From Nonlabens xylanidelens (GTDB lineage Bacteria; Bacteroidota; Bacteroidia; Flavobacteriales; Flavobacteriaceae), in the NCBI RefSeq assembly GCF_002934445.1, contig NZ_PTJE01000009.1, forward strand, positions 1-64,000: DNA of 64,000 nt, written 5' to 3'. The notes under the pieces are model-generated. The model saw only the letters and a program-made list of their open reading frames with translations. It was not told the DNA's origin and did not search any database. A program made the position numbers and the translations under genes. Position 1 is the stretch's first letter. The number at the start of each line of letters is the position of its first letter. Positions 11,367-13,508 of the stretch are shown here, in pieces.

Positions 11367-12113
11367 ATGCGAAAGAAACTAAGAGCTGATAATTTACAGA
11401 AATCCTATAAAGGTCGTCCGGTAGTTAAGGGCGTGTCTTATGAAGTGAATCAAGGAGAAATAGTAGGATTATTAGGACCTAACGGTGCTGGTAAAACCAC
11501 TTCTTTTTACATGACAGTAGGACTGGTAAAACCTACTGGTGGTGACGTGTGGCTGGACGATAAAAAAATCACACAATACCCTATGTACAAACGTGCGCAA
11601 AATGGTATAGGTTATCTAGCACAAGAGGCTTCTATCTTTAGAAAATTAACCGTAGAAGAAAATATACTAGGTGTATTACAACTGACTGACCTTTCTAAGA
11701 AAGAACAAAAAGAACGTTGTGAAAAACTTCTAGAAGAATTTAGTTTGCAAGACCGTCGCAATAGAAATGGTGATTTATTAAGTGGTGGTGAGCGACGCCG
11801 TACAGAAATAGCTCGCGCGCTAGCAACAGACCCTACTTTTATATTACTAGATGAGCCGTTTGCAGGTGTAGATCCAGTTGCGGTAGAAGACATACAGAGA
11901 ATAGTTGCACAACTGACTAAGAAAAACATAGGTATTCTTATTACTGACCATAACGTGCAAGAAACGCTCGCTATTACTGACCGCACGTACTTAATGTTTG
12001 AAGGTAAAATACTAAAACACGGTTCTCCAGAAGAACTTGCTGAAGATGAAGTGGTACGTAGAGTTTATTTAGGACAGAATTTTGAATTGAGAAAGAAGAA
12101 GATTTTTGAGTAG
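11367..12113 (+). CDS. lptB: LPS export ABC transporter ATP-binding protein LptB
   Basis: This cytoplasmic ATPase powers lipopolysaccharide extraction from the inner membrane with LptFG. The Walker [10 protein letters not shown] is at about 37-45, the signature is [15 protein letters not shown], the Walker B is [12 protein letters not shown], and the switch His is in ITDHN. The C-terminal [10 protein letters not shown] is typical of LptB. The 248-residue length is normal. A TAAATTTG -7-like element sits only 5 bp before the ATG, implying a very short leader if it is used. The permease genes are elsewhere. Confidence 0.95.
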
Positions 12114-12146
12114 AAATCATTTGTTTGAAAAATCTAATATTTAAGT

Positions 12147-12743
12147 ATGGGCCTAGATTCTGTTGAATTATTAGTTACTGTTGAGAGAAAATTTAAGATT
12201 GAAATACCGAACCAGGAAAGTGAAAGAATAAATACAGTACAAGAATTTGTAAATTCCGTATTTGATAAAATTAATATCGCTACAATAAATGAAGAGTCAA
12301 TCAAAGAAAATGTTTTTTTAAGGCTTATAAAATGTCTAAATCAATTGGGGATTTCATGTTCTCCATTGGATGGTAATATTCTTATTAAAGATTTATTTAT
12401 AACATCTCACTTGCATGACCTTTGGACACGTTTACAGTTTTCCCTCGAATTATTTCTACCAGCATTATCCGATAATGACATAGATCCAAATCTAGATACA
12501 CACGTAAAAATTTTCGGCTTTAAAACTATTAAACGCAATCAACCTATAACATCTGGGACTTTAAATCAATTAGTGGATTGGATTATTTCTATAAATTTTG
12601 AAAGTCTTATTAATTTCAATTCTATCTCCAATCTATATGAGATAGAAAGAACCATTTGCGGTTTAATAAATAGAAATATCGGAATACCAATTAACGAGAT
12701 TGAAATGCATCACTCAATAAATGCTGACTTAGGAATAGATTGA
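12147..12743 (+). CDS. Acyl-carrier-like protein with split (permuted) ends
   Basis: The 198-residue protein begins MGLDSVELLVTVERKFKIEI, the second half of an acyl carrier protein from the phosphopantetheine serine (Ser5) through helices II-IV. It ends IGIPINEIEMHHSINADLGID, which reads like the first half of an acyl carrier protein up to the residue before that serine. The middle (about 50-150) is unassigned, with a segment QPITSGTLNQLVDWIISINF. In-frame stops rule out an N-terminal extension, and the stop TGA abuts the stop of the convergent pssA gene. It could be a permuted carrier, two partial carriers, or a decayed remnant. Base composition is more A+T-rich than lptB. Confidence 0.7.
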   Translation: MGLDSVELLVTVERKFKIEIPNQESERINTVQEFVNSVFDKINIATINEESIKENVFLRLIKCLNQLGISCSPLDGNILIKDLFITSHLHDLWTRLQFSLELFLPALSDNDIDPNLDTHVKIFGFKTIKRNQPITSGTLNQLVDWIISINFESLINFNSISNLYEIERTICGLINRNIGIPINEIEMHHSINADLGID

Positions 12744-13508
12744 TTATTGATTTGCCTTCTTCTTACTCATCACATTATTCACCACACTCATCAAAATATA
12801 AATGACAATAATGCAAGGCACTGCATAAATTTGAAGCGTTGCTATCAATGTAATACACAAAGCGATAAAAATCCAGCGTATTTCATTTCCTTTCCAGCCG
12901 AAGCTTTTAAACTTTAAAGCAAATAGAGGCAATTCTGCATTAAGAATATAAACACTGAAAAGAGTGATAATGGTTAATACATAAGGATTAGTCAGCGCCT
13001 CTGTAACCCAGCCAGCGTTATAATCTTGTGCGATAATACCTAATGAAATAATCAAAATCGCATTTGCCGGTGTCGGTACTCCTATAAAAGAATCAGTCTG
13101 TCTGGTATCTATATTGAATTTGGCCAGTCGGTAACAACTACCTAAAGTGATTAAAAAACCTATTACTGGCACAAATGGATGTGCATACCACTGCTCTGGT
13201 GATGGTGCCTCAAAACTTGTTATCGTATTTGTCAGGTTATATCCTACAGCATCGCTCAACATTTGATACATGACTATTCCTGGTACAAGACCACTAGTAA
13301 CCATATCTGCAAGAGAGTCCAGTTGTTTACCTAGCTCGCTAGAAACGTGGAGCAATCTCGCGGCAAGACCATCAAAAAAGTCAAAAAATATTCCAGCTGC
13401 TACAAAAATCCCAGCCAGAATAAGCTGGTCATTAAACGCATAAATAGCTCCTATACATCCACAAAGCAGATTCAATAATGTAATAATATTAGGTACCCAA
13501 TTCTTCAT
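12744..13508 (-). CDS. pssA: CDP-diacylglycerol-serine O-phosphatidyltransferase
   Basis: This integral membrane enzyme makes phosphatidylserine, the precursor of phosphatidylethanolamine, from CDP-diacylglycerol and serine. The CDP-alcohol phosphotransferase motif is complete: Asp43, Asp46-Gly47, Ala50-Arg51, Gly60, Asp64 and Asp68. Several hydrophobic helices follow, and the length is 254 residues. It is convergent with the acyl-carrier-like gene with no spacer, and divergent from the PorV-like gene. The partner decarboxylase is not in this window. Confidence 0.93.
   Translation of the reverse strand: MKNWVPNIITLLNLLCGCIGAIYAFNDQLILAGIFVAAGIFFDFFDGLAARLLHVSSELGKQLDSLADMVTSGLVPGIVMYQMLSDAVGYNLTNTITSFEAPSPEQWYAHPFVPVIGFLITLGSCYRLAKFNIDTRQTDSFIGVPTPANAILIISLGIIAQDYNAGWVTEALTNPYVLTIITLFSVYILNAELPLFALKFKSFGWKGNEIRWIFIALCITLIATLQIYAVPCIIVIYILMSVVNNVMSKKKANQ

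Follow-up and report, generated by a model that had tools for sequence, protein, structure and literature searches.

A gene at positions 12147–12743 of the window, the 64,000-nucleotide stretch of Nonlabens xylanidelens DNA analyzed here (contig NZ_PTJE01000009.1, positions 1–64,000 of the forward strand), belongs to a protein family in which, as profile alignments show, the acyl carrier protein (ACP) has been circularly permuted by nature, with the chain opened exactly at the phosphopantetheine serine. We favor, with a probability of about 0.6, the view that this is a conserved permuted ACP opened at its serine, which would fold as a monomer and act as an arm-less mimic on ACP-client enzymes.

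The gene is located on the plus strand and encodes 198 amino acids followed by TGA. Its product starts with MGLDSVEL and ends with INADLGID, the stop codon following directly after Asp198, and three open codons precede Met1 before an in-frame stop is reached. The window ORF check bore out what the first-pass annotation had reported on the reading frame, namely its coordinates, its two termini and the stops on either side, and full-length relatives (aligned over residues 1–198) share both ends with the window protein. Upstream lies lptB, encoding the LPS export ABC ATPase (11367–12113, plus strand; TIGR04406, 361.4 bits at a cutoff of 240), and downstream a convergent pssA-like phosphatidyltransferase gene (12744–13508, minus strand; TIGR00473, 89.7 bits, below the cutoff of 107), whose stop codon abuts that of the permuted ACP gene.

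To place the two ends of the protein relative to an ordinary carrier, we used an ACP profile built from the canonical ACPs in the fetched loci. Residues 3–40 of the window protein matched profile columns 38–75 with 32.6 bits, and residues 165–198 matched columns 3–36 with 4.8 bits. Among 2000 shuffles of the window protein, 1569 obtained a score against the same profile, the best being 8.9; for the window protein alone, the N-terminal half exceeds by far what chance would give and the C-terminal half is within the shuffle range. Comparing family profiles with the ACP profile (hhalign) yielded E-values of 1.4e-22 for the N-terminal half and 1.7e-13 for the C-terminal half. The register was highly consistent in a set of 83 distinct members, in whose selection both ends had to pass a loose motif filter: the N-terminal half opened at residue 3, equivalent to column 38, in 83/83 members, and the C-terminal half ended at the last residue, equivalent to column 36, in 73 of the 82 members having a C-half match. 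The same register was obtained on the solved ACP 6u0j_B, where query residues 53–86 align to 3–36 and query residues 3–40 to 38–75.

Based on these alignments, the N-terminal piece corresponds to ACP residues 37–75 and the C-terminal piece to ACP residues 3 (approximately) to 35, and the position dropped between the pieces is ACP residue 36 (profile column 37), the phosphopantetheine serine. In the window protein, residues 3–44 (12153–12278, plus strand) would thus comprise ACP helices II, III and IV, from ACP residue 37 onward, as indicated by the profiles and the AF2 model, and residues 163–198 (12633–12740, plus strand) would comprise helix I and loop 1, the last residue being the one that precedes the serine. 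The attachment serine itself, which in the DSL motif marks the start of helix II, is not present: column 37 falls between the halves, and the profile register puts Gly2, encoded together with the chain start Met1 at 12147–12152 (plus strand), at its position. The earlier proposal that the ends are swapped, complementary ACP halves therefore stands, whereas its placement of the N terminus at the phosphopantetheine serine does not, as residue 3 is column 38. In such an arrangement the old ACP termini would be joined and the new chain break would lie just before the glycine at the serine position, provided that Met1 is removed; methionine is removed before glycine.

The permutation is most directly seen in seven minimal members of 81–88 amino acids, which by the same alignments are a permuted ACP and nothing else, and it is supported across the whole family. 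Upon de-permutation in silico all seven scored higher, with 48.9–71.1 bits as one domain compared to 39.4–61.7 bits in two pieces, and the window protein without its insert likewise rose to 53.0 bits from 39.7. General models capture the family only in part. The AcpP model TIGR00517 (cutoff 70.45) gave 37.6 bits for the window protein, aligning only residues 3–38 to positions 38–73, and 61.0 bits for the minimal form. The PP-binding model PF00550 was passed at its gathering score (23.0 bits vs 20.8), covering only profile positions 32–65 of 67, and was matched by 52/55 family members at E ≤ 1. The solved structures matched by sequence were named as ordinary ACPs, among the best 60 of 116 and the best 60 of 109 matches, and in five alignments to solved ACPs both halves occur in ordinary order. 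None of the homologues read had a single uninterrupted carrier at its N terminus.

The suggestion that the gene is one excised unit of a tandem array was not supported: ten full-length profile matches reside in open frames of only 197–209 codons, and the sole tandem pair seen consists of two separate, complete genes. The permutation itself probably arose when a tandem duplication acquired a new start and a new stop. It resembles in this respect the swaposins, which are natural circular permutants and would reflect the same kind of evolutionary event; unlike there, the cut in the present family hits exactly the active residue and removes it.

We next consider the predicted structure. The AF2 monomer model of the window protein, calculated with 55 family sequences, reached a pLDDT of 91.0 and a pTM of 0.88, with helices at residues 3–16, 22–25, 31–39 and 163–178 in the ACP part. 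A minimal member of 88 amino acids (L099), modeled with 45 sequences, gave a pLDDT of 89.7 and a pTM of 0.78. Within the predicted monomer, the C-terminal helix I would fold back onto the N-terminal helices II–IV, the joining of the halves being deduced from the high confidence values, and the insert would sit where the original N and C termini of the ACP meet. Foldseek superimposed the minimal model on the ACP 9a4c_A over 39 columns with 0.6 Å and 41% identity, the aligned range presumably being the N-terminal half, and returned no matches at E ≤ 0.001 for either the window model or the minimal model. The sequential aligner VIA gave Z-scores of 4.3–6.2 for the minimal model, with ACPs (up to 6.0) mixed with unrelated helical folds (up to 6.2); because unrelated folds score as high, we did not use these values as proof of the fold. 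For the full window model, the VIA matches to ACPs fall on the insert, residues 46–159.

The family divides into three size classes with common ends: the minimal forms, in which about 7–16 residues separate the two matched halves; proteins of about 173–202 amino acids with a soluble insert, including the window protein; and proteins of about 218–235 amino acids, whose insert, on inspection by eye, contains two hydrophobic stretches at about the place of residues 119–129 of the window protein. In the window protein this latter segment (12501–12533, plus strand) is a predicted β-hairpin within the insert according to DSSP analysis of the AF2 model. The first-pass annotation had described the middle of the protein as unknown; instead, both VIA and hhalign point to a degenerate ACP-like domain devoid of the DSL motif at residues 46–158 (12282–12620, plus strand). 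The insert matched the ACP profile with an E-value of 1.3e-4 and a probability of 53% (hhalign), and residues 46–159 yielded VIA Z-scores of 5.0–6.7 to 13 chains, in a range (Z < 8) that according to the tool may reflect a common arrangement only. Four of these chains are named ACP, one is a polyketide synthase module and eight others stem from respiratory complex I, which we take to be its ACP subunit. From sequence and model, the insert appears to be a second ACP domain in degenerate form, and most members would be permuted two-domain proteins with an ACP wrapped around a pseudo-ACP. Many members carry within the insert the motif C-[LT]-[ST]-Q-x-x-F-Y-x-[IL]-R, noted by eye. A divergent type, represented by L098 (223 amino acids), L111 (219 amino acids) and the 235-codon frames of L131 and L132, has lost both terminal signatures, MGLD at the start and DLGxD at the end, and shows degeneration of both ACP parts, with the hydrophobic hairpin present. 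L098 is homologous to the class of about 230 amino acids over nearly its full length and in the same permuted order (101.7 bits, profile positions 7–226).

The family comprises about 100 or more genes, mostly from Bacteroidota, and is rare but broad. Across 99 genomes, including that of N. xylanidelens, full-length matches besides the window protein occurred in one genome of the same genus (47% identity) and in one of another genus (42%). A pattern scan of named genomes detected 98 relatives, 80 of which were kept, mostly from Flavobacteriaceae, Cytophagales and Chitinophagaceae, with further relatives in MAGs titled Melainabacteria, Obscuribacterales, Gemmatimonadetes, Alphaproteobacteria, Methylococcaceae, Prosthecobacter, Acidobacteriaceae and Burkholderiaceae. 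One member (L017) is carried by the marine bacterium Leeuwenhoekiella blandensis MED217. Profile searches gave full-length matches in 10/397 genomes of the window's taxonomic family and 2/395 genomes of its phylum, while most of the remaining matches were to ordinary ACPs in their downstream half. Within the taxonomic family to which a Hymenobacter genome belongs, 17/150 genomes were found at the cut-off, 15 of them at full model length and one with an internal stop; in that of a Chitinophagales MAG, 11/195 genomes matched, five at full length; and the long-class profile matched 2/299 genomes in the phylum of an alphaproteobacterial MAG. When 395 genomes were searched with the minimal form, five matches were obtained, none over the full model. 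A separate ACP-like match starting at position 3 was also present in all 11 of the 11 genomes searched for it.

The family is under strong purifying selection, with a median dN/dS of 0.14 and a maximum of 0.29 (211 of 220 same-length pairs of 60–99% identity). Pseudogene decay, which had been raised as a way in which the permuted arrangement might be refuted, is thereby excluded for the family, the ends of which are constant. Single broken or odd copies do occur (L057, L072, L208, L212, L213 and L219).

The genomic surroundings were variable. The interval between lptB and pssA (window 12114–12743) differs within the genus: in the six same-genus loci compared it is empty in two (L175, L178) and other sequence precedes pssA in four (L173, L174, L176 and L177, with lptB of L174 outside the fetched stretch), including the nearest relative, L173, whose pssA is 96% identical and which carries a different predicted ORF in the gap. 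Clustering of ORFs identified no recurrent partner, as no other ORF family was present in more than 9 of 91 loci, some of which represent the same gene twice. A Pfam scan covered 73 of the 78 nearest neighbors, omitting both of L078 and one each of L079, L088 and L089, and yielded acyl-CoA dehydrogenases in 4/73 (mainly Hymenobacter loci) and CoA transferases in 2/73, given here as raw counts for which we claim no enrichment. Some immediate neighbors at the loci L042, L046, L052, L058, L070, L083, L077 and L081 are enzymes acting on CoA thioesters, those of the latter two being judged by eye. Integron attC-like repeats were seen by eye to flank the gene in a good part of 20 flavobacterial loci, and a strict attC-like pattern was found in 6/223 loci. 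Such repeats, of the form AACGTGTATAGC...GCCATACACAAAACCGTTG, were noted by eye at L014, L012, L022, L003, L016 and L090, with five attC-like sites within 7.5 kb at L014, resembling a cassette array. An inverted-repeat scan of two attC-like flanks found no arms, and Rfam gave 0 matches in six loci. The gene may travel as a single-gene cassette. Among plasmids, 27 records matched, one of them over most of the protein; this member resides on a 358-kb Persicobacter plasmid record (H1, CP012863.1, 192394–192970; 88% of the query covered, in two pieces). No relative was detected in the viral_contigs set by peptide patterns. A role as defence system found no support from the PADLOC anti-phage models: the window protein matched none, and five models were weakly matched by one or two of 55 members with a best E-value of 0.0024.

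Ser5 had been put forward as the loaded residue of a working permuted carrier. In its favor, the N-terminal MGLDS[VI] resembles the LGxDSL signature around the phosphopantetheine serine of carriers, and MGLDS would imitate LGxDS three residues downstream. To assess residues 2 and 5 we relied on profile searches, because the pattern scan had used MGLDSVEL and [KM][IV]FG[FI]KTI and is hence biased at the N terminus, including Ser5. Of the 39 loci found by profile, 13 share their first 40 residues with a pattern-found locus and 26 do not. Gly2 is present in 39/39 loci, and residue 5 is Ser at 25 loci, Thr at 13 and Ile at one; the 26 loci new to the pattern scan all have Gly2 (26/26), with residue 5 divided among Thr (13 loci), Ser (12) and Ile (one). 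The locus with Ile (L212) also lacks a normal C-terminal end. Glycine occurs at this position in one gene of the tandem pair L153/L162, two adjacent long-class genes in the genome of L089, one starting with MGLDS and the other with MGLDG and carrying one extra C-terminal residue. The register moreover aligns Ser5 with ACP residue 39, not with serine 36, in 83/83 members, a position at which 55 of 56 canonical rows containing the DSLD motif (47 distinct sequences) have Thr, and helix II of the AF2 model starts at residue 3 rather than 5. Together, the register and the Thr, Ile and Gly at that position led us to reject Ser5 as the phosphopantetheine site, and a working carrier loaded there appears highly doubtful. 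With the serine gone and Ser5 not its equivalent, we strongly infer that loading in the known way is impossible.

The constancy of the termini calls for other readings to be weighed. The C-terminal motif was present in 38/39 profile-found loci, and the chain ended at the Asp35 equivalent or one residue later in 78/80 pattern-found ORFs stopping inside the locus, a count unfiltered at this end since the scan patterns do not include the C terminus. The usual C-terminal end is missing in L057 and L072, and the ORFs of L059 and L087 are cut off by the contig end. That Gly2 is invariant and the terminal Asp highly constant exceeds the needs of a pure mimic, is the main fact left unexplained by that model, and could indicate that the termini take part in chemistry. 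For this reason we retain, as an unlikely reading, a carrier loaded at its terminus, in which, after Met removal, the free Gly2 amine and the C-terminal Asp carboxylate would lie where the serine used to be and one of them would serve as the attachment point for cargo in place of the phosphopantetheine arm; the break exactly at the attachment residue agrees with it, but no loading enzyme is linked to the gene among the neighbors examined, conservation of Asp35 may reflect no more than an inherited helix cap, and of 83 members five end in Asn, one in Tyr, one in Glu and one in an extra Thr. More generally, and also with low probability, the family might be a phosphopantetheine-free carrier, with the Gly amine or Asp carboxylate as attachment or catalytic group, or with the ends ligated into a cyclic ACP.

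Two further explanations assign the function to other parts or to an assembly. The permuted ACP could be only a platform for the insert or the hydrophobic hairpin as business end, as the insert motif and the relatives of the L098 type, which kept the insert upon losing both terminal signatures, might suggest; however, the minimal members lack the insert and keep both ACP ends, making this structural or regulatory scaffold role distinctly unlikely. The complementary ends would also be compatible with a head-to-tail oligomer, in which the halves of neighboring chains rebuild ACP domains. Such self-association is not needed, because the monomer is predicted with high confidence for both the window protein and the minimal form, and the short spacing between the halves in the minimal forms likewise stands against it; we regard it as very improbable.

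An arm-less ACP mimic binding ACP-client enzymes is the most likely function. The acidic helix II surface is the part by which ACPs are recognized, and the family retains by sequence the helix II residues L37-D38-[ST]39-V40-E41-L42, E47 and F50 (ACP numbering). As a competitor, sensor or scaffold, the protein would dock on the phosphopantetheinyl transferase or on one or several enzymes that use ACP, and the long class may dock at the membrane. It would act alone with the host machinery; the absence of a recurrent neighbor and the scattered, stand-alone distribution fit a protein that uses host enzymes. Besides this surface conservation, the mimic step draws on an analogy with apo-ACP. According to PMC4736557 an unmodifiable ACP has effects in cells: forced expression of an obligate apo-ACP (S39A) suppressed growth, and apo-ACP is said to inhibit glycerol-3-phosphate acyltransferase. 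Like apo-ACP and the serine-to-alanine mutants, the family would present an ACP without the arm, but those are laboratory or transient forms in normal order, whereas here the chain is permuted and the arm-less state apparently permanent. Compared with AcpP (PF00550, TIGR00517), the ACP segments on either side of the serine, the helix II residues and the predicted helix pattern are alike, whereas the order of the two parts is swapped, a chain break and Gly2 replace the phosphopantetheine serine, and a degenerate ACP-like domain is added in all but the minimal members. By title or start of abstract, no natural permuted or serine-less ACP was found in the searched literature, which covers the field in part.

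The ACP is among the best-studied folds, and its serine-bound arm is regarded as its raison d'être. Annotation from the half-match would label the present family as plain 'acyl carrier protein', which would be misleading. As a naturally permuted ACP, the family lends itself to studies of folding and recognition, and it makes testable the idea of an arm-less ACP mimic regulating enzymes of fatty acid or phospholipid metabolism. Its occurrence in many genera and, judging from MAG titles, several phyla suggests that the ACP fold is used beyond carrying the phosphopantetheine arm.
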